A stretch of DNA of 27,500 bases, from the NCBI GenBank assembly GCA_018398765.1, contig JAHBMJ010000802.1:1-27500 (forward strand). The letters run 5' to 3'. Numbering within the stretch: position 1 is the stretch's first letter; each line of letters opens with the position of its first letter. Source of the DNA: Chromera velia. Taxonomy: Eukaryota > Sar > Chromeraceae. Below the pieces are notes generated by a model. That model was not told where the DNA came from, made no database searches, and saw only the letters and a program-made list of their open reading frames with translations. This document shows, in pieces, positions 687 through 27,192 of this stretch. The position numbers were made by a program, and so were the translations under genes.

Positions 687-1149
687 CCTTGCTAACCTCT
701 GCATTGGAGGTCAGTGTATATATGCTCCACCATTTGTCAGACATTCTTATGAAGTGTAAAATTATGACAAAAGAGACTGAGTTGCAGTATCATGTGTCTG
801 CTTGAACTCGTTGGGTGAATGTACAGAACTGCAGACATGCAACAGCAAAATGTTGCGCAACGCTTCTACCCTGTTGTATACTGTTGTTGCCTTGTAGTCA
901 CTCACGCAAGAATTCAAAACCATGACCAGTAACGCTCCTGCGGCATGTGCCCTTTTACTTGAGACCCCGTTGTGCTTTGGCGTGGTGAGAAGGCACACCA
1001 TGACCGTCCACGCGTGCCCATCAACGAAAATTGCTGTTCATGCATCCTTTGTGATGCCTCCTTGATGTAAATATTGATGTATGTGATTGATTGATGATTG
1101 ATTGATGTATGTGTCTTCACCATTTCTTCCTTCCCCTATCTGCCTGCAG

Positions 1150-1783
1150 ACATTCAGAGAGCAATAGAGGACTCTGCAGAGAGCAGAAGGATGCTGCGAA
1201 GAGGTGGAGGAGGAGGAGGACGAGGCGACAGAGACAGAGACCGCGACCGTGACAGAGACAGGGACCGATCTTCCACCACAACCACTACCACAACCACCAC
1301 AACCCCAACCACCACTTTACCCCCAGCAACCACGACAACCACCACTACTACCACGACGACGACCACTACCACCACCACACCCTCTTCCCCAACAATCACA
1401 CCCTCCAGCACCACAACTACTACTACCACCACCTCTACCACCACTACCCCCAGCACCACCACCACAACAACGGGCCCGCCTGTGCCCTCCCCTGTGCCCT
1501 CTCCCCGCCCGGGTGCAGACACGCGCCGTCTCATTCCTCAGCTCGTCCGTCTGTCCTTCCACGATTGTGTGGGCGGCTGCGACGGCTGTGTGAATCTAGA
1601 TGATCCCGACAACGCCGGTAGGTGCTCATAGCTTGGTTCAAATTTAAGCAAATCAGTGATGGATTTTCTTGATCGAGGGAGGCACCAGGGACTCATAGCA
1701 GATTTCCAAAAAGGATGTGTGTCGTATTTTACCCCTCCTTTTTTCTTTCTTTCTTTCTTTCTTTCTTTCTATCTATCTTTCTT

Positions 1784-1817
<34 letters not shown>

Positions 1818-4420
1818 CTTCTTTCTTTCTTTCTTTCTTTCTTTCTTTCCTTCTTTCCTTCTTTCCTTCTTTCCTTCTTTCCTTCTTTCCTTCCTTCCTT
1901 CTTTCTTTCTTTCTTTCTTTCTTTCTGCCAACAGAAGAATCGGTTCTACCTCTTGTACGCCAGCCAACATGCGCACATGTGAGTCTTGCTCTGCATACAT
2001 ACCTCCACATCCTCCCCTCTTCTTTGCCTAGATGCAGGTCTAGCTCCCCCCCGAGACGTGCTGGAGATGATCTACATCACCCGAGGTCTGCCAATGCAGG
2101 GCGTCTCTCGAGCAGACTTGTGGGCTCTCGCTGGTCGGTGTGGGCCTTTTTGGTTTAATTGGGTGGGTATGGTCGTTTTTTTCTTTCTTTCTTCGTTGCT
2201 CTGCTTCTTCATTTAATTATTTTGTCTCGATCGCTATCCAATACCTCAATTATTCTTGGCAAAACGCTTAGTGGTGCACACATGGATCAATTTTCTTGAA
2301 GACGCATACTGCCCAGCTCGGTCTCACTCAACCTTCTTTGTTCACCAAAGTCCCTTTTTTGTTCACCAAAGTCCCTTTTTTGTTGTCTCCTTTAATTTGT
2401 GCAATGCAGCTAGTTTTGCTCCCCCATAACAGCCAAAGAAACAAAGTCTGCCAGTGTCTATCTCTGTGTACGCATGGATGGATGGATGGATGGATGCAGG
2501 GAAGGTGGCGGTGGAATACGCAGCGCTTCTTGCAGGTGTGTTTTTTTGCCTGTCTGTTTTTAGTTCTCTCCCCCCCCTCTCTCTCTCTTTCTTTCTTTCC
2601 CTCTCTCTCTCTCCCCGCGCTTTCGTTGCACCAATTTGTCTGCTTGTCTGTGTGTCTGTTTGGCGTCACCTCCGTAGGGCTTTCACATGTACAGAAGAAA
2701 AGAAGGCGGCAAAGTAAAACTCCACGGAGCCCAATTTTGTGTTCAAAAGAGTGTGGTAGGAGAATTGGTTTGGCTTTCTCCCTGTATTTTAGCATGGCTG
2801 TATCTTTCTCTTCAGATGCAGTGTGTCAGCACGTTCGTGTCAAATGATGAAAGATACGAATGAATAAATGAAAACAAAAATGTATGAATGAGTAACGGGT
2901 GCAGGTTCGACAGTGACGATCCCTTTTCTGACCGGCCGCGTCGACTGTCCGGAGAGTCCCTCAACCTCCAGTATCGACGGGATGCCTTCTGCAAATATGG
3001 ACGTCAGTCCTGCATGCGGCATTCATTTTTATCTGGTTTTCTTTCGTTGTTCGTGTTCTTTCTTTCTCTTTTTCTTTCTTTTTTTCTTTCTTTCTTTCTT
3101 TCTTTCTTTCTATCTTGGCTCTGTGCGAGTCAGACAGTGACTTCCCCTTCCAGACTGCACATGACAAACATGCGAGATGTCCGTTCTTCATCTGGGATCC
3201 TCTCCAGACTCATCGATCATTCATTCATATCAAAGATGGACACAAGCTGCGGTCTACGCGTTTTGTTTTTGTTTCACTGTGTGGGTAGTCGAGTGCAACT
3301 GTACATACATGTTGCTTCCTGCATGTCAGAGTACATAAACGACTAGGCAGGTGCACAGATGAAGAAAGAAACAAATCCACGCAAATGAATGTCTGCAGAG
3401 CTCCGGAGTGGTGTCCTTCTTCGCGAATGAATTCGGTTTCACAGAGCGAGAATCGGTGGCGATCATGGGAGCACACACGCTCGGAAGGTCAGTGTCTAGA
3501 GACCTGTGACTGCCAGGCAAGCATGAGAATAAGGGAGGGATTAAGTGACGGACGGATTGCATGAGAAAGACTGCACATTGCAGAGCGCTCGATGAGATGT
3601 CCGTGCATCAGCATCACCTGTATCAACCTCTGAAGCTGATCGTTTGTCTGTCGGGGGAATCTTCCTACAACGCGTTTTCGTTGCTGCTGCGTCGACATGC
3701 CCCCGGAGAACGTTTCCGTTCTCCTTCACCCCACATATCCTCGTGTATCTCCCTACCTGCATGTCAGTAACAGCAGTACTCAACCCACGAAAGAAAGACC
3801 AAAATGATACAAGTTGACCACTGTTTCTGTAAATTCCATCTATCTGCATGATGCAGAGCCAACATCCAGAACAGCGGGTACAACGGGGGGTGGGTGGATC
3901 AGGTGGAAGACGAGGACCGACTGGATAACGAGTTCTACGGGTAGGTAGCTGTGTATGTATTAATATGTGTATGGGGAGGGGGGGAGGAAGAGAAGCACGT
4001 GGAGGGAAACGGAATGAAGATTCTCGTTATCTTCATGAGTGGATGGGGGGGTACTTTATGTACGAGTCTTTAGGCATCTCCTCTCATGCACGCATTTTCT
4101 CTTTGATCATGCAAATGAATTAATCTCTGTATGCATGCCCATATGGGTGGGTGCAGAGACATGGCCAACGAGAGATGGACACAGGACGTCAGCCCTGCAG
4201 GTTGGTTCGTTCTTGCGTTGGTCTCTCTCTCTGTTGCGCGTTTGAGGGGGAGTTATGTTTCGCGCCGTTTGTCTCAGTTCTTCTTTCCACTTTCGTCAAT
4301 TTTTCGCTGCTGTCAGTCTGGCTGTTTGTTGATCCTCGCAGGTGAAATGCCCTTCAAGCAGAGACTTTGAATTGCACTGTGAATTTTGCACGTGCGAGAA
4401 CTCTCTCTCTCTCCCCATTG

Positions 4421-4454
<34 letters not shown>

Positions 4455-4482
4455 CGTGTGTTTGTGTGTGTGTGTGTGTTTA

Positions 4483-4525
<43 letters not shown>

Positions 4526-5688
4526 GAAAATGGCAGTGGAAATGGGGACGCAACAACAGCCTGGGTCTGATGCTGAACGCGGTACGTCGAAATGCACAGC
4601 CAGCAAGACGGGGCGAGACTTTCTTCTGTTCTTTCCGCATGAGTGGCACTTTCTGTGCTACAGACAAGCACAGCGTTCTTTTTCTACCAGCCCTAGCAGG
4701 CTGAGGAGTCATCTTGAATTCTCTTTTTGGCAATCCATTTGTGCATCTAGATGCTGCAATTGTTTTTCAACCTCTGCGTAAAGAGTAAAGTCACTTTGGC
4801 TCTAAAAGAGCTAGTCGGAGTTCAGTACATTTGTCAGTTTTACTCACTGTGTCCTCCATATAGAGGCATGACTCTTGACCTACAATCCACTCTCTATCTG
4901 TCTGTTTGTCTTCTCATCTCCCTTCCTCTCCACTCCTGTGGTTATCTGCTTGATTGCAGGACATGGCCCTCCTGCAATTATTTTCATAAAAATTCTGTAT
5001 GAAAGAAAATAAATTCATTGCTTGATTGCAGGACATGGCCCTTCTGAAGGACTTCACGATGGTGACTGACGGGAGATCCTTGACTTTCCCGAGAGATTCG
5101 AATGTGAGTGAGTCGTTCTTCTTCTTAATTCTTTTTTGTAAGCTGGGGAGGAGAGAGGGGAGTCAGGAGCCTCAGCGGTCGTTCAGTGTGGCTGTCTTTT
5201 AAAGATGCACTTCTCAAAAGCATGCAACGATTAATGAATTCTTCTTTGGATTCTGCAGTCCAGAAAGAAAACAGACAGATGGGACGGTTGGGAGCAGAAG
5301 AGATCTGCAGAGGCAGAGAAGGATCTTTCTTGCCTTGTTCGACCATTCTCTTAATTCATCTCGTGTGGTGCAAGTGGGGTGGATACCTCTCTTTCTTTCG
5401 TGCTGTCTGTCTGCATGCAGGATTGTTCGGACTCAGGCACTGGAGACATCGTGAGAGAGTACGCCCGCAACAACGCCGCCTGGCTGTCCGACTTCGCAGA
5501 TGCCTTCGCGAAAATGGTGCAGAACAAAAATGCAGGACTGCTGCCGCTCTCTGTCACAACGTGAGGACAAAGGGGTGAGGGAAGGATCAGACGGAATGAG
5601 GTCACATGGACCTCTTTGCTTGGTCTTGAGGGGGTGTCTTCTCTGATAACTCTTCATGGGTAGAATGTTTTTGTTGGTACGCGTAGGC

Positions 5689-12017: not shown

Positions 12018-15000
12018 TATGCATTTCCCCAACTCCCCTGCACCGCACCGACTTACGCACAGACCCTCAGACAATGGAGAGGAATAAAGAGAACAGTGCG
12101 ATGAACGTGAGGCTTTGGGCAGGTCCATTAGAAGCAACTCGACGCGGTCTACTCTCAAAACTCCAGCAGACACGCTGAGAGGTCCCGTGACGGAATCTGT
12201 GGCATATTCTGTTTGATTTGTCCCTTTGCGTATTAGATGGGACAAGTCACATGTCGTTGAACCTGATCTGATGTTGCCGTATCATTTTTCTGCTTTCTCT
12301 GTTTATTCCCACTGGCCCTCTCCGACTGACTGCATTGGCAATCTGTCAGATAAGCATTGCTGTAGCTCTTTGCAGGATTTGAATTTGTTTTTAAGCACTC
12401 TGACATGAACAAGCTTTTTTCAAGCCCGTATGACACAACCGACCTCGTGGGATGACTTCTGGAGTTCCTCTCTTGCCATACTCTCTCGGTCTTTGAGTTC
12501 ATGCATTTTCTCCCACAGCATGAGGTTGTTTGACATCGTCAGTCGGATCTCTCGTAATTCTTTTCGCATTCTTTCTCCCATCGCGTGCGTCTTCCAAGCT
12601 GTAAATGTTCGCAGCTTCACTGCAGCAATCATCAGTTCCCGGACCATCTCCCGAAGAATCGACACCTCCGTCAAATCTCGCCCCGCCAAATTTCCTAAAA
12701 GTCTGGCAGTCGACGGAGCCATCTGATCTACTCCTTCTGCATCGAGTCCGAGTTTCTTCAACTTTCTTTTGGCAACCTTCAAATTTCGGGCATCCCACCC
12801 GACGCGGGCGCTTCTTTTCTTTTTCTTCTTTTTCGCCGCTCCTTCTTCTCCAGGAGTCTCCGAGAGTCGTCCTTCCCCTTCTTCTGACGTGTCGTCAGCA
12901 CTGTCGTCTGTCAGAAGGCCATCATCTTCCTCTTCTCTGCCATCCGTGTCCGAAGCCATCTCAAACGGATTCTCCAACTTTGTCTGCCCACTGCGCCATC
13001 CATACCTCCCCCCCCTTGTTGACGATTTGGCATCAACTCCCGCAGAGGCATTGAGTGCCTGGCCTTGTCGCTGCTTGAGGGACCCCACGGCCTCCTGCAG
13101 GCTCTTCGGCTTCGAGTACAACGGGGAGAGCAGCAACGTGTTCTTCACTTGAAACGCATTCGGGTTGTTTGGATTGCCAAGCGGGACAGCGAGGGTGTCG
13201 TTGGCAGGGAGAGCGACGGCAGAAGCCGCCAGAGGCGACATCATGCCTGTCTGGCCCCCTCTGAACGAGGCAGCGGGATCCATCGGTTTGGTCCCCATCC
13301 GGCCTCGTCTGGGACTTTTTGAGTTTGCATCTTTATCCTGTACTGCAACAAGATATTCCAACACAGGCTGTTCGTCGAACGTCAGCCTGATGGGATCCCG
13401 TTCCTTGGCAACGGACTTTGCGGAGAGGACCATGTTGTGGAAATCCGCCTTCGAGACGTCGGCCTCCTTTGCGAGGGCTGGTGCTTCCTTCTCCCTGAAA
13501 TCCGTTAGCTGCTGTTTGAGAACCTGGGGCACCCCCCCTGCCTCGTTGCAGAAACTCTCACAGATGTCCATCAACTTTGTGATGGAAGCCTCTTTCAAGT
13601 GCCGGAGGGAACCGGTGACTTCAGTGGACAGGGCGTGTTTGAACTCCTCAAAACGTCCTGAATAGAAATTGACCTGCCAGTACGGAGACGGAGAGAGGAG
13701 AATGTGAGCACTAGGAGTCAAGAAAACTGAAGGACAGCTGTGGCAGAAAGTCCATCCAGTTGCATCTTCTCAGTCTTCAAACGTTCGGTCATAGTCTGCA
13801 TGACTTTATCTTTTCAAAACTACAGCACCTGACCGTGACTTTCTTTACGAAAGACTAGAGTTATTCTTGAATGCGTTTGGGGAGAGTCCAAATTGCACCT
13901 CCAAGGAGCGTCTTCTTTCTCTGGCTACCCTTTTCAATCCGCCTTCCTTTTCCCCTTTCTGTCGAAAACACCTCTCTCACTTTGCTCGATTCTGTCGGAG
14001 CTGAAGATCCAAAGGCACGAGAGCCCTTTCTGGCTCTGCAATTTCGCATCAAGATCGAACAAGTGCTCGGGGAGACGAGCAGCAAAACCAACAAATGCAC
14101 TCATGCACGCACACGTATAGACACATGGATGCATGCATGCACAGACCGACTTGCGACTGGAGGTCTGACAATTGTTTGCATTTATTTTCATATAGAATTT
14201 TTTTACGAAAACAAATGAATGCACAGACCGACCTGCGACTGGAGGTCTGACAATTGTTGCCCGACAGCGAGTCCGATCTCGTCTCTTAGTCGTCTTTCGG
14301 TCTCTCGGGCCTCCACCCGGAGATCTCGAATGATCCTGCAGGCAGGCAAGCGCATCCGTCGATATCCAAAAGTCATATCAAATCAAATCAGGACTCAGAA
14401 GGAGAAAAGAAGAATTGTGTAATGGTTGTTCGACAAACGGGATGTCGGATGCCCCTCAGAAGAGAATTAAAGGGTGTGGAAGCGAACCGGGGGCAGTCTT
14501 TTGCCGAGAAGCCTCACACAGTTCACTCAGGAATCAAACAAGGACGGCCGAGCAGCACACAGTTCACTCAGGAATCAAACAAGGACGGACGAGCAGCACA
14601 CAGTTCACTCAGGAATCAAACCAGGACGGACGAGCAGCACACAGTTCACTCAGGAATCAAACCAGGACGGACGAGCAGCAAACAAAACCCGCCCGTGATA
14701 CGTTTTTCCGCGACAATCTATGCGAATCTCTATGCGTCCTTTCACACAGCAGTTTTTGAAGTCCAATGATCGATCATGCACCTATAGACCTACCTACCTT
14801 CGGAGTCGGTCAACTTCAAAGACCAGTGAGTGGCCCCTGTCAGTCAATTCTGCATTTACTCGAGCGTCTATCTGCTCTTTGATGGTCTCAAGAATGGCCT
14901 TTTGCCTGAAGTTTCGGAGCTCGGCGACCTGCAGGCACGCAAATTACGACTCTCCGTCTCCCATTTGTGGTTTCGGAAACAGTCAGGCACACACAGAGAC

Positions 15001-15056: not shown

Positions 15057-18000
15057 GAGACAGAGATGCAAAGAGCGAGAAAGACACAAAGCGGCAGTGG
15101 AAGAGAAAGAAGCCTGCCTCATTTGCACTTCATCCCTTCTTCCTTCCTTTTTGCCCCTCTCTTGTACCTGGAGTCTCCGGTTGAGCATTCCAACGACGTC
15201 GTTCTCTGTTCTTGTCCTACTGGTCAGCCAGTTCACGCCCCAGACAATCAGACGACGTCCAAGGTCCTCTGTGCATTCGTTCAGGTCTTTCTCTGCAAAA
15301 ACGTATCCCCTCTCTCCAGAGGACGTCCGCACAAAAGTCCCTCGGGATCTCAGTCTGTTAATGAACTGCAGCACCACATCCACCTTGGTCACAAATGGAC
15401 GTTTCTCCATCAACTTCATCGCCGTCGCGTTGTGAAATCGGACCTCGGCAGCTGTGCGCGATTCATTGGCGCCCTGCAATGAAATCAATCATGTTGGAGA
15501 AAATAACCCATGAATTCATATTAATAGAAAAAAAAACTGGCAAGCTTCCTGAAAGAGCGGAGCAGGGTGGTCAGTCTATCAAGGCTTCGAGGATACGTTC
15601 AACGGAGTGGCTTTGAGATACATCCTGCAGCTGAATTTGTTGAAATATGAAACACAAAATGTTCAGTACGTCTTCGTTTACTGACCTGTCTGTGTCTCGA
15701 CGCCGCGCTGTGTGCAGTCATGGCGGCCCTGTAGGCTTCTTCCTCGAACTTCAGGGCACTTACTAACGCAAATTCGCGATTACAGGCCTCGGCAGCTAGG
15801 CCAATGATCATTTTATCTATCGCACAGATGAGCCTGGTGGTCTGGATGTAGATCGCCCCAAGCTCTCTGTTGATGTCCATGCATGTCGCTCTGATGGTGT
15901 CACAGGGGAGGATGTTCTGTTGGTCTGCTGCTGCCTTGTCCTTCTCCAACCCTTCTTCGTCCCCTGCAGCCACAGCACCCCGAAGAGCGTCGCTCTGCTT
16001 TCCCAAAGGACCCCCCTCCTCACCGACTGCACCCGAAGAGGAGGATGAAGACCCTCTGCCGTTTGGCTCTGTGCCGTCTCGTGAGTCTGGCACGGGAACG
16101 CCTTTCACTGTGGACCTGAGAGAAGAACAAAAAGGAAGGAGAATGCTTGGTTGGAGTCTGCAATACATGCGAAATTGTTGAAGGAGGCGACACGCCCCCG
16201 CAGTTCGGGCAGTGTACAGGAAGCAGCATAGGAAGACGTGTGGGGGAAACCGGGGGTGCAATTCATTTGACAGCAGCACCAATTTGTCCTTCCATAGGAG
16301 TTTCTCTAAAGAATCTTCTGCAATGTAGATACAACAACAGCTGGGAAAGAAAGATGGATGTTTCCTCGATTTGGCACTCTGCAGAAGGTGCTTCAAGTTC
16401 TTCTTCAATTTGTTTGCCTCTGGGTGTTTCACCTCTCTCGACTGACCAGTCTGTGTGTTTGTTGACGAAGAGTTCGAGTTCGTCTCTTGGGAGGAAGAAG
16501 AGAGTTCTGTAGATGTCCTCTCGATTAGCCTGCTCTTCCCGAGTGAGGGCCCAGGGGATTCGGGTAAGAACCGAGAGGGCAAGATCTCTCAGTCTCTCCT
16601 TGGTGAGGAGTGTGCGGAAGAATTCTTCTTCAGAAAACAAATTCTCCCACGGATGTGTCAACTTGTTGTGGCCTCTCGACTGCTCTCATGCAGAAAGAAA
16701 AGATCAAAGAGAGAGAGAGAGCAAAGAAATATCAGGAGGAGATCTGATGGGGGGTAGCGAGGGATGGATGGGAAGGCAGGAGCAAAAATGAACTCGAAGA
16801 AACGCCAGAAGAATCCCTCATTAGACCAATCGGAAAAGACCGGAGAAAATTACGAAGGGCTACAAACAGAGCATATACGTAATTTGAGCACACAGACAGA
16901 CCAGCAAAAAGTCTTGGAGCTTCACCTCCAGTTCCAGTGAAACCCCTGCTGCGTGCTGTCGTCGTGGAGGGGGTAGATGAGGAAGGAGGGCCTCCACACC
17001 CTCAAGAGAAGGAGTTGCCAGTGCCCATGGGAAGAATCCACAAGGGCCCAAAACCTTCGAAGCCCCGGCAACTGCCTCAGGCACCGTGGCTGTCCCCCCC
17101 ATTGCAGACACCGTCACCACCTCGTCGAGTTTCAGGAAGTAAGCAGCGCACTTGCTCTTGGTGGAACTCACACCCCCTGCAGCTGTGGGGCTTTCTCCAG
17201 GCATCCCTGCACCCTCACCCCCCTCTGCCCCTGCTGCTGCTGACACAGTTCCTCCTGGTCCCTGCGTCTGCTGCGACTGCAAGGGATTTCGTCTCCGAAG
17301 GTACTCAGCTCGGACTCCGTAGGAGCGGTCCAGGTCCATCATCCTCAGGGGCAGGGAGGCAAAGAAGGTCTGCTTCAGGAATGGGTGAAAGTAGGGAAGT
17401 GCAAAGTTCCTCACGTCAGGCCGTGTCTCTGCTACCCACACGCTCGTTTCGTGCTTCACCGGTGCGCCCCGGAGCGACTCCTTCTTCTGATTACTGCACG
17501 CAAGAGAAATGGGGCAGGGGAGCAGAAAAAACAGATTGTTCTTACAGAAGAAAGTTTTGGGGCAGGGGAGCAGAAAAAACAGCTTGCTCTTATAGAAGAA
17601 AGTTTTGGATAAAAGGAGCGCACCTTATTTGTCGGTGAGTGATCGATAGCCATGAAAAAAGGATATGTTTGCAATGAGAATTGAGAGAATGTGGAGCGCG
17701 ATTCATTGAGACACCAAGGAAAAGACGGAAAGCTATTGAAAAGAAGGCACGAAAGCGAACGAAGCACACCCTTCTCTTATTCTCAACATGCAGCTTGCTG
17801 ATTGGAGATGCCGCTTCAGGCATCGCAAAGCTACCTAAAGCATCAATTGAGGGGACATACCATCGTACAGTCGGCAGACAGTCGAGCTGGGGGTTATTTT
17901 TTATTCCCTTTGCGTTTGGCTCCATCGGTGTGTTGGTGGCCTGGTTGGGGTCTACCCAGGCTTGCATGCCCCCTCTTAGAGATATGTGCGGGTGCCTCTC

Positions 18001-24000: not shown

Positions 24001-27000
24001 CACCCTCTACCAAACGCACATCGCTCAACCCTTCCAGATTTCCTTTGCTGGTAGGGTGCAGAAAACCCTCCATCGGATGTGCAAGCCATTCGTGGACGTC
24101 CAAAAAAGTGCTTCCACCTTCCCCCACCCTGGCAAACAGCGCGTGTTTCCGACTCCCCGATGCCCTGGCACCTCCCTCGCCTTCTGTCGGTGACGCAGCA
24201 GATGCATTCAACGCATTTGATCGACGGCTTTGTGAGGTGGGTGGGGTAATCTCGATTCCTTCTGCTTCCCTCTCTGCGGCATCTAGATCGCTTGAGGAGT
24301 CTTCGTTACCCGTTCTCTGACTCTTCTCCTTTCGTCGATCTTTCTCATTCTGCACGCTGCAGTACCCCCACGAGAGCAATCAACACGCATGAGGAGAAAA
24401 CACAGGAATGAAAACGATGCGCATTTTTGATGCACGAATTTACGCAGTGCAGTATGAGGAAACCGGACGCTTTCATTGAAATATCCTTTTTGAGTCATCC
24501 AAAAACAGATAATCTGCCCAACTTCTCTCCGATTCCTCCCTTCTCAAAAGCTAACAGATGAAGAAAGAATCGTTCGTTGCAACTTCCCTCTATATGTTTT
24601 TGCATACCAGGAGGACGAGCTGATGGGTGTGGCCAGACCAACATCTTTTCATGCCAGGTGGTAGAGATTGAAAAGGACCCAGTTGTGGTGTCGTGAGATT
24701 AATTTTTGGGTCTGGTACGTTCCCCATTTATTTGGATTTGAAAACGTTGGGTGTGTCCGGAAAGTTTTTTGTAAACCCCGAGCAGGTAATTTCCTATCGC
24801 ACCTTTTTTCCTGAGCTACCCCCGGACTCACGTGAGTTTTCTTTCTCGTTTGTTCTTCATGTCCTCCGTCAACAGTGTCTCCCAGTGCCTCTCAGCATCT
24901 CCCGCCTCCTGCCTCTCTGTCTCTATCTGACAGTCAACCAGACTGCGAAGGAGACGGCGCCGCCCTTGCAGAGTGCACGTCGCAGTCGCGTACTCGTCTG
25001 CATACCAGAAGTCGACACGCATGTGCGGTCCTTGGATTCGTCAGTCCTTTACTGAGACATATCAGTCATAAAGAAGCGTTCGGTCAGAAAAGGTTTACGA
25101 CATCCAGACTACGCAAACAGACAGAAACCCCAGGGGCTCTCTGACTAACATTACTGCACCATTAATTACAGGTGCCTTACCTCCCTGCCCCCCTTCGCTC
25201 GCGCCCCACCGACCCACCGACCCCCCGACCGACCTGCGAAGTACTCATCATCAAAATCCAGTCGCGGTCTCTGAGCCATAACGTCCGTCATCCGCTGAGC
25301 AATTTCCTTTCTCTCCTTCAGATCTGATGTGTGCTCTAGGATCTCTCTGTACACGTCGATGAGTTGCCGTTTGCTGTCATGAAACGCGAACTCGGACTCT
25401 AAAATATCCAGGAGCACGCCGACCCGGTCTACTTGAGGGCTTGGTGTGTTGTCAAGGGGGGAGGGGAGGGAGGAGGGCTGGATTGCTGCTGGATCGGGTT
25501 GTTTGGATTTGAGCTTCCTTTCCTCCTCCTGCTTTCTCTCGTACTGCTGAATGAAAAATGAGCCCATCACCAACATATCTGTCTCCAGCTGCAATAAATG
25601 CATAGAAGAAAAGCAGGACAACGCTTAGTCCCGCAACGTCTGTACACGATATCTTGGATAAGAACACTAAAAGTCTTTCTATGAAGTGGTGTCACTTCAC
25701 CAATAGGCAGCCATTTTTAACTCAATGAGCAAGCCAGTCTCACTGGTGGATGAAAGAAGAAATTAAGAAAAGCATCGTGAAAGAAAAAGGCACTTCTACA
25801 AGCAACGCGCGCAGAGACATGCACAATCAGCCAAAAGAAAGAAAAGACAAAACAGGTCAACGAGGTCTCCCCACCGACCCTGTTCAAGTCTGCAAGTGCA
25901 GATTCGTGGAGAATTGGGATGTCGTGCTCGTCTCGGATAAGCGTCTCGTCGCTTTTCAGAACCTCCACAGTCTCAAGTCCTGCGGCAGCATACATTTATT
26001 TTATGTATGTATGTATATATATATATATGTATGTATGTAGGAAAAAGAGTTCTGTATGAAAATAAATGCAGAACCTCCACAGTCTCAAGTCCTGCGGTAG
26101 GCAGCATCGAAAGTCAAGGAGAAAGGGGCAAAAAAACAAAAGAAAAGAACAGAGTGAGAAGCACAGTCAGTCTGACTCAAGCTGACAGACAAAACTACAG
26201 GCAGAAGAACATGCGCACACCATCCTTGACAGAAAAGAAGAAAACAAGTTCCTACAATTTAGAAGATTCCCGCCAGAAAGAGGTTTCATACCGACACAAA
26301 TGTTCTTGTTTTATCCGGATGCGACTTTTGCCGGGTCTGTACATTTCAGTCTGAACACAACGTCGTTCGCACTCTGTGTGGGAGGGAAACAACGAATACA
26401 CAAAATAGACGAACCGAATTGCGCTTCCTTCAAGCTGATGGTGTTTCTGTTTGGCAGCGGGAAATCCTTCAAAGTCTTATGGAGAGGGTCCAGGTCTGGC
26501 ACCACAGGATTTGAGGCCCCAAAAAACTGCGAGCGGAGACGGTCAAAGACCGTGGAGGCATCATTGGAAGAAGCCGCAATTGTGTCCCCTCGCATCGCAC
26601 CACCCAGAGACTTCCGAAGGGTTTCAGTCTGGGAATCGCCCCCTGCATTCTTTTTGATGCCCATGTCGTTATTCTCGTCTCCATTTTCCCCCTCATCTCC
26701 CTCCTCCCCATCCTCTCCCTTCGTTTTCTGATTCTGCGAATGAGAAGCCTGTAACTGATGCCACTGGAGTCTCTCTTCTCCTGTCGCTCGGTCCCACCTG
26801 AAGCAGGAGAATTCATTGCGAACAAGGGAAAGATTGTGCGACAGAGAAAGAAGCAGAAACTGACAGTCCACATCCATGCATTTATGGATGTCGTTCTATG
26901 AATAAGGAGGGCAAAAACACAATCCTTCCTCCTGTCTTTCGTGCTGCGAAAGTCCAATTCACACACACCCACACACCACCAAAGCACACACCCACACACC

Positions 27001-27192
27001 ACCAAAGCACACACCCACACACCACCAAGGCACTCACCCACACACCACCAAGGCACTCACCCACACACCACCAAGGCACTCACCCACACACTACCAAGGC
27101 ACTCACCCACACACCACCAAGGCACTCACCCACCAGGGATCCCAAGGGGCCGGAGCAATGAGATGCTGCTGAGCGTCGAGGGACAAAAATCT
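9049..27192 (-). CDS. Giant coiled-coil/helical protein, 28 exons, 5' end outside window (possibly CCDC162-like)
   Basis: Exons in transcription order: 27192-27134, 26797-26415, 25979-25879, 25588-25234, 24997-24832, 24356-23866, 23726-23224, 22861-22544, 22184-22071, 21746-20976, 20333-19629, 19251-19057, 18985-18937, 18854-18778, 18687-17861, 17493-16926, 16679-16447, 16340-16167, 16115-15686, 15473-15168, 14928-14798, 14335-14233, 13673-12444, 11975-11896, 11441-11308, 10977-10765, 10420-10248, 9807-9049. Every junction is GT/AG, phases agree throughout, and the sum is 3,216 codons with the stop TAA at 9049-9051. The protein alternates conserved-looking helical blocks with Gly/Ala/Ser/Pro-rich or acidic inserts and ends in a coiled coil plus a disordered tail. 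There are no membrane segments or catalytic motifs. Segments such as ERLRDLALSVLTRIPWAL and KERKEIAQRMTDVMAQRPR remind me of the CCDC162 family, large coiled-coil proteins of flagellated eukaryotes; this is recall, not an alignment. Less certain junctions: the first donor (27134 or 27130), the exon starts at 23726 and 22861, and the donors at 20976, 19629 and 18778. The start codon lies beyond 27500. Confidence 0.75.
10248..10420 (-). CDS. Exon of the giant gene: coiled-coil segment
   Basis: Joined to the exon 10977-10765 it reads ENDKLILENKRLKKQVSRER and continues RELKEEAFSKLNLFRSELEE, a clear heptad-like coiled coil. It ends MADLMQQLQ before donor GTCAGT. The smooth run of the coil across the junction supports skipping the possible frame at 10640-10680. 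Confidence 0.8.
10509..10613 (+). repeat. (TC)n and (AC)n microsatellite in intron
   Basis: Adjacent TC and AC tracts inside the intron 10421-10764 of the - strand gene. Confidence 0.95.
10735..10764 (-). repeat. (GTCA)n tandem array starting at a 5' splice site
   Basis: On the - strand the exon end TTGGAAA is followed at once by GTCAGTCAGTCAGTCA and further copies (about seven GTCA units), so the donor is the first unit of the array. Confidence 0.85.
10765..10977 (-). CDS. Exon of the giant gene: Gln/Gly-rich linker into coiled coil
   Basis: It starts after TACAG with GIGPEGNKAQQQPQQGGQQ, runs through a Gly-rich linker to MSAVERSPQRNMVALKHEN, and ends at the beginning of the coiled coil. 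Phases are 1 at both ends. Confidence 0.75.
11308..11441 (-). CDS. Exon of the giant gene: coiled-coil segment
   Basis: Reads RLTELEGEVAANEKLRGFN and KLMKILQKKEERIRELESL, strongly charged and helical. It joins the 80-base exon 11975-11896 (RAEYLKLQLAVSRDKCQKLQ) in phase 2, which fixes the frame of that small exon among two competing open frames. Confidence 0.8.
12444..13673 (-). CDS. Largest exon of the giant gene (410 codons): helical domains, acidic patch and basic lysine run
   Basis: The order is: helical VNFYSGRFEEFKHALSTEV and KLMDICESFCNEAGGVPQVL; a Ser/Pro/Gly linker; an acidic region EEEDDGLLTDDSADDTSEEG; a lysine run AAKKKKKKRSARVG that could be a nuclear-localisation or nucleic-acid-binding patch; then coiled coil LREMVRELMIAAVKLRTFTA and ELREIRLTMSNNLMLWEKMH. 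The exon is phase 0 at both ends, and its donor is GTCGGT. Acidic-then-basic inserts like this are probably flexible linkers. Confidence 0.88.
14137..14258 (-). mobile_element. Mini palindromic insertion, copy B, with 40-bp target duplication over a donor site
   Basis: Left repeat 14137-14176 and right repeat 14219-14258 match at 39 of 40 bases. Both carry the last bases of the exon 14335-14233 and its donor GTCGGT. The single difference is at the exon's last base: the working copy reads CAG/GTCGGT, the spare copy CAA/GTCGGT. The 42-bp insert (14177-14218) starts TGCATTTATTTTCATA and ends with its imperfect reverse complement. On the - strand the core reads TTCTATATGAAAATAAATG, as in copy C. 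The working donor is the one nearest the exon, so the insertion is wholly intronic. Confidence 0.78.
14515..14679 (+). repeat. 41-bp minisatellite, four copies
   Basis: Four head-to-tail copies of a unit beginning CACACAGTTCACTCAGGAAT, starting at 14515, 14556, 14597 and 14638, with few substitutions. They lie in the intron 14336-14797. Open frames through it are a by-product of the repeat. Confidence 0.92.
14798..14928 (-). CDS. Exon of the giant gene: conserved-looking helical segment
   Basis: Reads VAELRNFRQKAILETIKEQ, DARVNAELTDRGHSLVFEV, DRLR before donor GTAGGT. Too short to stand out as a reading frame, but it has a strong TGCAG acceptor and its phases (0 in, 2 out) match its neighbours exactly. 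Confidence 0.8.
15168..15473 (-). CDS. Exon of the giant gene: helical domain
   Basis: 102 codons, phase 0 at both ends: GANESRTAAEVRFHNATAMK, then FVTKVDVVLQFINRLRSRGT and DLGRRLIVWGVNWLTSRTRT. Compact and helical, with no low-complexity insert. The flanking intron holds (CA)n at 15015-15057. Confidence 0.82.
15571..15624 (-). other. Possible alternative 3'-terminal exon of the giant gene
   Basis: After a good acceptor (TTCAGCTGCAG) an in-phase stretch reads DVSQSHSVERILEALID and then TGA. Splicing of the exon 16115-15686 into it would give a truncated protein. No phase-0 donor lies before the stop, so it cannot be an ordinary internal exon of the long form. It may be a genuine short isoform or chance. 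Confidence 0.25.
15686..16115 (-). CDS. Exon of the giant gene: Ser/Gly insert plus conserved-looking helical block
   Basis: A Ser-rich and acidic insert is followed by NILPCDTIRATCMDINREL, AIYIQTTRLICAIDKMIIGL and CNREFALVSALKFEEEAY, a dense helical block, ending RHRQ before donor GTCAGT. Phases are 2 in, 0 out. Confidence 0.85.
16447..16679 (-). CDS. Exon of the giant gene: strongly conserved-looking block
   Basis: Reads NKLTHPWENLFSEEEFFRTL, ERLRDLALSVLTRIPWAL and YRTLFFLPRDELELFVNKH. It has no low-complexity sequence and is the block I would use first to test the CCDC162-family idea. Phase 0 in, phase 2 out at GTCAGT. Confidence 0.85.
16926..17493 (-). CDS. Exon of the giant gene: N-terminal conserved part and Gly/Ala-rich linker
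   Basis: Starts KHETSVWVAETRPDVRNFAL (after a short lead) and FHPFLKQTFFASLPLRMMDL, then a Gly/Ala/Thr linker, then KCAAYFLKLDEVVTVSAMGG. It ends at GAG before GTGAAG. Phases fit both neighbours: it starts with the third base of a codon. Confidence 0.82.
17509..17610 (+). repeat. ~51-bp tandem duplication spanning an intron's pyrimidine tract
   Basis: The block GGGGCAGGGGAGCAGAAAAA plus about 30 more bases is repeated twice, just upstream (on the - strand) of the acceptor of the exon 17493-16926. The duplication doubles the polypyrimidine tract. Confidence 0.85.
17861..18687 (-). CDS. Exon of the giant gene: long Pro/Ser/Gly region ending in an ordered block
   Basis: 276 codons starting LRTALPLDSPDPSNVVVPQP. 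The first two thirds are disordered-looking, with patches KERKSVVTLMFDPAVLGSLD and SRTSVYFLFSDTDETYVRER that look folded. It ends CLPTVR before GTATGT, phase 2. Confidence 0.82.
19057..19251 (-). CDS. Exon of the giant gene: helical block
   Basis: 65 codons, phase 0 at both ends: EVYSMPPHAHHKGVQVAVEA, LMIEMGEIRQEVKRIDADR, HRLMFGKAQTGLWKLQ. Two micro-exons follow (18985-18937, 49 bases; 18854-18778, 77 bases); their phases fit, but their short length makes them less certain. Confidence 0.82.
19629..20333 (-). CDS. Exon of the giant gene: ordered N-terminal part, acidic insert, ordered end
   Basis: Reads ICGLAVQYQTAVLNNSLHDL, then an acidic stretch NEEETRREEGETEVSKAI, then YVDQSMQCALPFFLHPVDRI and SLLDVDAASVIKHKRWTYFQ, ending ATYCNS before GTTTGT (phase 0). 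The donor GCAATTCG/GTT has the same exon context as the donor at 26415. Confidence 0.82.
20976..21746 (-). CDS. Exon of the giant gene: poly-Gln insert and conserved-looking domain
   Basis: 257 codons. After PKMLPNGETVFAEPLSI comes a run of seven glutamines, then LTPSYSVLPFKTNVTFRPAA, GCCAGKLVEMCQVLQHERAF and LLHGLFVHPFQELQPLQG. The frame runs on to a stop at 20961, so a shorter protein ending here is possible. The phase-0 donor GTCAAT at 20975 joins it smoothly to the next exon instead. Confidence 0.8.
22036..22070 (-). repeat. (GAGT)n tandem array starting at a 5' splice site
   Basis: The donor of the exon 22184-22071 (CGTCAG/GTCAGTGAGTGAGT) runs straight into about eight GAGT units. Confidence 0.88.
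22071..22184 (-). CDS. Exon of the giant gene: short conserved-looking block
   Basis: 38 codons, phase 0 at both ends: IRLRIEMSQYLFDNAILESV, TTRQAALFGHVVDSSFRQ. Found only by splice sites and phase. Confidence 0.82.
22501..22543 (-). repeat. (GAGT)n tandem array at a 5' splice site
   Basis: The donor of the exon 22861-22544 (GAACAG/GTGAGGGAATGAGTGAG) opens an imperfect GAGT array of about 40 bases. Confidence 0.8.
22544..22861 (-). CDS. Exon of the giant gene: Pro/Gly-rich linker and helical end
   Basis: 106 codons. A Pro/Gly/Ser-rich stretch (GGGESPGPPPPNSPSPRR) precedes EDEIRLTGSLRRNLGDLKKK and ELVLSVYANFLEQ. The start needs the acceptor GCAGAG/GAG, two bases inside the stronger TTGCAG, to keep phase 0. 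This is the least comfortable junction of the chain. Confidence 0.7.
23036..23098 (+). repeat. (CA)n, poly-A and (GA)n tracts in intron
   Basis: Adjacent simple tracts inside the intron 22862-23223 of the - strand gene. Confidence 0.95.
23224..23726 (-). CDS. Exon of the giant gene, with an internal 99-base intron-like segment
   Basis: Reads VSVAVWRYRRTERDILEELE, FFVALVEIIWRLIERLYDGF, LHLLLQNNCRRLIAERAYVH and DPAEVLQYHASWLLSQ. Segment 23598-23500 begins GTAGGT and ends CACAG like an intron, but is 33 codons long, has no stop, and reads as good helix. I treat it as coding. The acceptor at 23727-23729 is AAG in a poor pyrimidine context; its phase fits. Confidence 0.8.
23866..24356 (-). CDS. 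Exon of the giant gene: charged linker then ordered block
   Basis: Starts VQNEKDRRKEKSQRTGNEDS, a charged and probably disordered lead, then STFLDVHEWLAHPMEGFLHP, SSIGILDFHESVGLAWKCET and IEEGVKEIMSSFRTSSVKHV. Joined directly to the exon 24997-24832 in phase 2, it needs no extra exon in the 475-base intron between. Confidence 0.8.
24832..24997 (-). CDS. Exon of the giant gene: helical segment
   Basis: Reads DEYATATCTLQGRRRLLRSL, VDCQIETERQEAGDAERHW and EDMKNKRERKLT before donor GTGAGT. Phase 1 in, phase 2 out. Confidence 0.82.
25234..25588 (-). CDS. Exon of the giant gene: helical block, candidate family signature
   Basis: Opens LETDMLVMGSFFIQQYERKQ, then a Pro/Ser linker, then RVGVLLDILESEFAFHDSKR, QLIDVYREILEHTSD and KERKEIAQRMTDVMAQRPR, closing DFDDEYFA before GTCGGT. 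The spacing and charge pattern of the last part is what suggests the CCDC162 family to me. Confidence 0.85.
25879..25979 (-). CDS. Exon of the giant gene, with its acceptor duplicated by copy C
   Basis: Reads LETVEVLKSDETLIRDEHDI, PILHESALADLNR before GTCGGT. It joins QFG of the upstream exon in phase 1. The acceptor CCGCAG and the first 23 bases of this exon are repeated at 26069-26097 by the neighbouring insertion. Confidence 0.82.
25957..26097 (+). mobile_element. Mini palindromic insertion, copy C, with 29-bp target duplication over an acceptor site
   Basis: Left repeat 25957-25985 and right repeat 26069-26097 are identical over 29 bases. They cover an intron end and the start of the exon 25979-25879 (- strand). 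The 83-bp insert (25986-26068) begins near CATACATTTATTTTA, has an internal (TATG)n/(TA)n expansion, and ends TTCTGTATGAAAATAAATG, matching copies A and B. Starting the exon at the spare acceptor would run into a stop, so the copy at 25980-25982 is used and the insertion is intronic. Its orientation is opposite to the host gene. Confidence 0.78.
26415..26797 (-). CDS. Exon of the giant gene: acidic linker and ordered end
   Basis: Reads WDRATGEERLQWHQLQASH, an acidic stretch DGEEGDEGENGDENN, then TVFDRLRSQFFGASNPVVPD and LHKTLKDFPLPNRNTISLKE. The donor GTTCGT at 26414 is chosen because it alone gives the phase needed by the next exon without creating a stop. The frame stays open to 26311. Confidence 0.75.
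26960..27129 (-). repeat. 23-24 bp minisatellite carrying repeated donor-like GTGAGT
   Basis: Head-to-tail units seen on the + strand as CACCACCAAGGCACTCACCC and the variant with AAAGCACACACC. On the - strand five units carry GGTGAGTGCC. The one nearest the exon 27192-27134 overlaps that exon's donor (27129). The other four are decoys inside the intron. Confidence 0.88.
27130..27192 (-). CDS. First visible exon of the giant gene
   Basis: After GTGCGTGCAG the best frame reads FLSLDAQQHLIAPAPWDPW. With donor GTGGGT (exon end 27134) it joins the next exon in phase as WDRATGEERL. With the stronger donor GTGAGT (exon end 27130) a different frame would be needed. The gene continues upstream beyond 27500. 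Confidence 0.55.

Follow-up and report, generated by a model that had tools for sequence, protein, structure and literature searches.

Short inserts that share one arm lie between long direct repeats and are in excess at predicted splice junctions in Chromera velia

Scattered through the Chromera velia genome are short inserts, lying between long direct repeats of target sequence, which have in common only a short inward-reading arm and which fall on predicted exon-intron junctions far more often than expected. They are not copied from one another, and each looks freshly written. Our main reading, to which we give a probability of roughly 0.45, is that the inserts are synthesised in place at staggered breaks by copying of a short template, and that those whose duplications take in a splice site survive.

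Three copies, A, B and C, lie in the window (the whole 27,500-bp stretch analysed), which holds three matches to the core sequence of the insert against a mean of 0.00 over 100 shuffles. Copy A is a 44-bp insert (4975..5018) with imperfect inverted arms, ATTATTTTCATA and TATGAAAGAAAATAAAT, between two plus-strand direct repeats of 28 bp at 4947..4974 and 5019..5046. These repeats are 27/28 identical, the sole difference being C/T, and each consists of 13 intron bases ending in TTGCAG followed by 15 exon bases; in the left repeat the intron end reads TGCTTGATTGCAG. Within the gene model, the left repeat is taken to be the copy remaining within the intron and the acceptor used is taken to be that of the right repeat, with the exon running from 5032 (DMALLKDFTMVTDGR...). 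The predicted exon at 4959-5031 (0-based, empty-site coordinates) begins at this right repeat. On re-reading, the coordinates and repeats agree with the earlier note, which had described a 44-bp insert between 28-bp repeats comprising the intron end and 15 exon bases.

Copy B has a 38-bp insert (14177..14214) with the arm TGCATTTATTTTCATATAGAA, and its 44-bp repeats (14133..14176 and 14215..14258, minus strand) are 42/44 identical. A minus-strand splice donor is predicted within its duplication, the second repeat containing both this donor and the end of the exon. The repeat at 14133..14176 is taken to be the copy inside the intron of the predicted minus-strand gene, and the donor used is taken to be that in 14215..14258, read as CAG|GTCGGT by eye and as TCG|GTCTGT by the gene finder. 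Copy C, which spans a predicted minus-strand acceptor, has an 83-bp insert (25986..26068) with a single strong arm, TTCTGTATGAAAATAAATG, at 26050-26068. Its 29-bp minus-strand repeats are identical; that at 25957..25985 carries the exon start of the minus-strand gene and is taken to provide the acceptor used, and that at 26069..26097 is taken to lie within the modelled intron. In each of the three window duplications a gene finder trained on element-free sequences predicts a splice junction, as the earlier note had claimed in saying that the family recurs twice more over exon-intron junctions. Its description of the insert as palindromic applies loosely to the imperfect inverted arms of copy A, but the three window inserts lack a clear excess of folding relative to shuffles (z of -0.30, +0.30 and -1.53), and no more than 26/73 of the elements described below show two recognisable arms.

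The genome (177.8 Mb, 4040 contigs) contains 2,049 matches to the core at up to 2 mismatches (1014 forward and 1035 reverse), against 5 (2 + 3) for the reversed control pattern. One element may yield more than one core match; in the fetched sequences and the window, 166 matches fall into 98 clusters. All 33 copies first read (30 fetched and the 3 of the window, L004 and L005 being one array) have the insert between direct repeats of 17 bp or more, and direct repeats are likewise present at all 20 loci fetched for a sister variant of the arm, where the 20-bp repeat of L073 was read by eye, the script having misassigned it. Both the many further copies and, on those read, the long flanking repeats are in line with the earlier note.

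With 40 further stretches added, the set comprised 98 core clusters, of which 87 had a gapped repeat score of at least 18; so, however, did 76 of 716 random positions, an effect of simple repeats, which the script left unfiltered. Filtering by repeat score (at least 15), insert length (10-130 bp), complexity and duplicate locus gave 82 elements, with a median insert length of 60.5 bp and a median repeat length of 40.5 bp (range 17-121; repeats above 65 bp were later set aside as arrays or doubtful). Restriction to non-overlapping elements with repeats of up to 65 bp and inserts of up to 112 bp left 73. A search for repeat-flanked inserts that made no use of the core found 113 in 297 kb, 95 of them with the arm, a share that is inflated because the loci had been fetched for the core and that we dropped as a control. 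The figure used instead comes from sequence away from the anchors, where the arm occurs in 12 of 23 repeat-flanked inserts (the 12 include the three window copies and that of L039) against a chance rate of 5.7% for the arm pattern. By eye, most of the 18 armless repeat-flanked inserts resemble tandem or simple repeats. The 6 non-anchor clusters in 130 kb suggest a rough figure of 8,000 copies per genome, which may be biased upwards, since the stretches were chosen around other copies. At several loci, repeat and insert form tandem arrays, such as five consecutive units on C709, so single insertions can grow into minisatellites. Regularly spaced arrays were noted at L042 (G000:C709:6015-6521) and on C505, C710, C3776 and C3293.

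All gene structures referred to here are predictions from DNA, made by a gene finder that trained itself on empty-site sequences obtained by deleting the elements. A first self-training, which drifted to 49% coding, was discarded; simple-repeat masking and stronger penalties brought this value to 22.5%. The splice sites learned by the finder are donors near AG|GT(C/G)AGT and acceptors TTGCAG|G. Across all fetched loci, the third intron base of predicted donors is preferentially C or G (GTCAGT, GTGAGT); this is unusual and may in part be a product of self-training.

Of the 73 elements, 32 have a duplication that covers a predicted exon-intron junction, compared with 7.7% of same-length windows from the same loci. 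Splice scoring without masking raises this to 38, 43 and 34 of 73 at three penalty settings, where 6.0, 7.5 and 4.5 are expected and the maxima of 300 resamplings are 13, 16 and 11. Duplications internal to an exon are rare (2-5 of 73, against about 18-21% expected). With parameters unchanged, 9 or 10 of the 20 sister-variant elements lie on a junction, against 2.4% and 10.3% of controls; this replicate is weaker because its stretches are 431 bases long and the L073 duplication was misplaced by the script. The excess at splice junctions that the earlier note had suspected is seen in both sets. Several elements scored as intronic look by eye like junctions missed by the finder, and are left out of these counts. 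The duplications are also lopsided, with medians of 9 intron and 28.5 exon bases, and the junction lies at a mean relative position of 0.24 (n = 38), as against 0.50 in 2,298 control windows (P = 2.5e-7); the mean for donors alone is 0.26 (n = 13). A simple splice-motif count in the left repeat (34/82 against 16.9 +/- 3.6), with a loose acceptor pattern, is superseded by these figures, and codon scores of single flanks were too noisy for use.

Ten gene-model slices, chosen as looking conserved, were submitted to Pfam, and eight gave matches. In seven the domain covers the element's junction (AAA, kinase (the second of two), MTHFR, histidyl-tRNA synthetase, P450, EF-hand and triose-phosphate transporter), and an EGF domain starts right at the junction of its element; the copy A protein and one other of the ten slices gave no match. 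One predicted AAA ATPase exon carries elements at both its acceptor and its donor (L034:3326-3480 and 3953-4109).

Reading frames bear on which copy of a doubled splice site is used. For 39 of the 43 junction elements, splicing at the other copy would lead to a stop or a frameshift when tested in the frame of the predicted gene, and in the remaining 4 the other copy is harmless either way. These predicted structures uphold the proposal of the earlier note that the duplicated splice site shifts the insert into the intron. A count of open frames over all six frames (27/72) was uninformative, and the gene-frame test was used in its place. The result suggests that insertions into coding sequence could be made silent if the duplication includes the whole splice site. 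Introns would then grow at exon edges with the protein unchanged, and scattered duplicated splice sites could feed alternative splicing. The junction copies lengthen predicted existing introns, and none was found to be a clear newly made intron. Having AAG|GT in each of its repeats, the element of L039 at 4226 was considered as a new intron internal to an exon of a kinase gene, and was rejected on the gene model, which gives the acceptor as TGCAG|GG.

What is common to the copies is a short arm alone (about 20-31 nt), which reads inwards as (TG)CATTTATTTTCATACAGAATTC, or as CATTTACTTTC in the sister variant. There are two arm subfamilies, T and C, whose arms by eye mostly match each other. A 31-base form of the arm starting AAAAAG occurs at 84 places genome-wide at up to 1 mismatch; the 20 of these fetched as sister-variant loci are all repeat-flanked inserts, with no template gene among them. 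Beyond the arm, similarity falls away: among 76 inserts the best full-length identity to an insert at another locus has a median of 0.77 and a maximum of 0.89, with no different-locus pair at least 90% identical, and the 35 bases beside the arm are at most 0.80 identical between the 20 sister-variant loci. Five inserts with identical repeats of 47-55 bp (L002, L057, L011, L034/3952 and L089) were searched genome-wide; such recent inserts would be expected to have siblings if they belonged to an ordinary transposon family. The next-best match to the L002 insert is 84% identical in a search that scores best candidates only, and the other four have no near copies genome-wide at up to 3 mismatches, a search that gapped siblings would escape.

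Under a loose definition of the arm, 26 of the 73 elements have both arms, 44 have one and 3 have none; the strict core occurs in both directions in only 17 of 72 inserts. The second arm of young copies ranges from good to unrecognisable and is often poor. At L073, a one-armed insert opens directly with AAAAAGAATTC, adjoining the 20-bp repeat. Neither a long element body nor poly(A) was seen in the copies, and no longer or full-length element with these ends was seen among those sampled. The label of miniature element, in the MITE sense, finds no support: a short arm is shared, the middles are unique, the ends vary and the inserts are not mutual copies.

Arms were recognised at 96 of 146 insert-target junctions, starting at offsets of -3 to +17 (-2 to +10 in the subset tested without array-linked loci). 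At the 86 junctions with offsets up to +10, microhomology to the assumed template averages 1.47 bases, against 0.54 +/- 0.11 when permuted; without array-linked loci the values are 1.25 and 0.55 (maximum 0.96 of 2000, n = 75). At least two core copies in the same direction are present in 19/72 inserts, as though copying had restarted on the template. A 10-mer is shared with the insert's own flank in 10/72 (control mean 1.76, maximum 6), clear cases being L052, L054, L058 and L070, with some of the others among the ten being arrays.

Under synthesis in place, two nicks, usually 20-60 bp apart and with an often mainly exonic segment between them, would open the DNA. One or both 3' ends would pair by a few bases, often TGCA or GCA, with a short template and be extended. 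The extension product would be (TG)CATTTA(T/C)TTTCATACAGAATTC(TTTTT), which is the arm seen in the inserts, and the template, whether RNA or DNA, would read AAAAAGAATTCTGTATGAAA(A/G)TAAATGCATG. Joining of the ends, often after slipping or jumping, would account for the observed structure, in which arms face inwards and the middle differs each time, and fill-in of the stagger would duplicate the segment between the nicks, as the direct repeats suggest. Judging from predicted structures and reading frames, most exon insertions would be lost and the survivors would be those whose duplication holds a complete splice site; the untouched exon would retain a working site and the remainder would be removed with the intron. 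Since both arms are present in only 26/73 elements and second arms are poor in young copies, two faithful copies of a fixed template would be too simple a scheme: the copying would be sloppy, or partly one-ended, or the template pool mixed. Reverse-transcriptase domains are abundant in the genome, none of them with a link to the arms, and the analysis turned up no template locus, nuclease or polymerase. A more specific version, which we put forward only tentatively, is that some enzyme makes paired nicks in exons at a spacing of about 20-60 bp, that the ends copy one dedicated template of about 31 nt, that thousands of unique "signed" scars survive where the duplication doubles a splice site, and that exon edges steadily become intron. 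Were each insert written from a template where it lands, a sequence could spread without its copies descending from one another, and element finders that use whole-copy similarity would tend to overlook such inserts.

Other origins for the inserts have some of the same evidence behind them. The inward-facing arms in 26/73, the direct repeats on the copies read, the many copies and the two arm subfamilies, which also suit an inverted-end element, would be expected of a conventional MITE, a non-autonomous DNA transposon whose ends are inverted, mobilised by a transposase that cuts with a 20-60-bp stagger. Its outer ends, however, would be fixed relative to the duplication, and here they start at offsets of -3 to +17 with microhomology; repeat length varies widely (17-121, median 40.5) rather than being short and constant; and inserts are not mutual copies even where the repeats are identical, with the proviso that gapped siblings of four of them would be missed. 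Unique interiors with variable, microhomologous ends argue against a cut-and-paste MITE, which we consider unlikely. Junction microhomology, pieces derived from the target and reuse of the arm inside inserts all point also to host repair, of a polymerase-theta-like or fill-in kind, that copies existing genomic copies, the arm being a self-propagating repair template with no enzyme of its own. The variation of the arm in young copies would then reflect a mixed template pool, and small tandem duplications made by fill-in at staggered breaks are known, as far as one account describes them (PMC8355091). Such repair leaves unexplained both the exon bias and the repeated use of one stretch of about 31 nt, the arm pattern being present in 12/23 non-anchor inserts against 5.7% by chance, and we think it more doubtful still. 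Sloppy excision of a larger inverted-end transposon might also leave an intact duplication that encloses two arms and variable filler, both ends and some filler staying behind between the target duplications. That no full-length element was seen in the sampled copies, and that outer ends vary, which is not an effect of excision, make such scars highly improbable.

The junction excess, for its part, could reflect direct recognition of splice sites, by pairing of the acceptor TGCAG with the TGCA of the arm or by coupling to the spliceosome, in place of exon-biased insertion and selection. Seven of 21 acceptor duplications begin exactly at TGCAG or CAG, TGCA stands at the edge of 18/73 duplications (8.0% of controls), control windows with a TGCA edge cover a junction in only 13.4% of cases, and the intron side is short at donors and acceptors alike. 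Against this, 55/73 duplications have no TGCA edge, the donor motif itself contains no TGCA, and the mean relative position of the junction, 0.24-0.25, is that expected of exon-centred duplications that need to include the whole splice site, so exon bias with selection is sufficient. Survival without exon bias is insufficient, because about 10% of non-exon control windows cover a junction, compared with about half of the elements. On the predicted gene structures, exon-biased insertion followed by selection would be enough to give the junction excess, and direct recognition seems to us rather doubtful. Of the "splice-junction-targeting" proposed earlier, the strong excess at predicted junctions stands; targeting itself is unproven, and the lopsided duplications suit exon bias with selection just as much.

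The inserts fit no known class among those tested, and a search by titles and abstract openings, whose coverage is thin for subscription journals and preprints, found no prior description of them. Introners, known from Micromonas, Aureococcus, Symbiodinium and others, are described as giving rise to new introns, repeats of 3-9 bp being stated for some earlier families; they are found by end-to-end intron similarity, and some recruit splice sites from the duplication (PMC9860276). The likenesses in that account are short repeated inserts, target duplications in many families, tolerance through splicing and a GC-rich or genic insertion bias (PMC9860276). The present inserts differ in having duplications of about 20-60 bp and unique interiors, and in lengthening predicted introns that already exist. 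End-to-end similarity is not found here, its maximum being 0.89 among 76 inserts, and we infer that a search based on it would miss them. With predicted existing introns extended and no clear new intron found, "introner-like" in its defining sense finds no support. In Amoebophrya, the introner elements define non-canonical introns and carry 3-5-nt direct and 8-20-nt inverted repeats (PMC7789003). They share with the present inserts the inverted and direct repeats around intron boundaries and the lack of a general transposase, and are also alike in that no family-specific inverted repeat was found (PMC7789003). Here one arm is common genome-wide.

In twin or dual priming by LINE-1, as described, one template gives rise to two fragments that face inwards inside the target duplication, with microhomology (PMC2837659). 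Here target-junction microhomology is present (1.47 against 0.54 permuted, n = 86), and paired inward arms are seen in 26/73 elements (17/72 with the strict core), the others having one arm or none. The inserts differ in that only some 20-31 nt are shared, that a long body or poly(A) is not seen and that both ends would prime at the same template end. A conserved body with a constant 3' end or tail, as in SINEs and LINEs, is not seen in the inserts, in which the arm is the only common part and the middles are unique. Entamoeba EhSINE1 has similarly long duplications of variable length, mostly 18-24 bp in its young class and 29 in one listed copy; in contrast to the present inserts, it is reported to have a body of about 500-600 bp, near-identical siblings and T-rich targets rather than exon edges (PMC2996970). 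The neointrons of Daphnia, attributed to staggered-break repair, have exon-intron direct repeats of 4-12 bp, and resemble the inserts in that repeats form at staggered breaks with inserted sequence; in the account cited they are new introns, with no genome-wide shared arm described (PMC4202315). As far as the cited accounts go, no compared system combines unique interiors behind a shared arm with duplications this long.

The remaining observations concern the window itself. An Rfam search returned nothing at gathering scores. Exons of the gene surrounding copy A extend over 1098-5560 (+) and encode what we take to be a peroxidase-like motif (LSFHDCVGGCDGC); the slice of this protein that gave no Pfam match was tested without that motif. 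Tandem repeats of 41 bp (14510-14680) and 23 bp (26962-27140) occur with the arm absent from both. At 17510-17608 there is a 48-bp tandem duplication with no insert, which could be the outcome of the same kind of staggered break minus the copied template.
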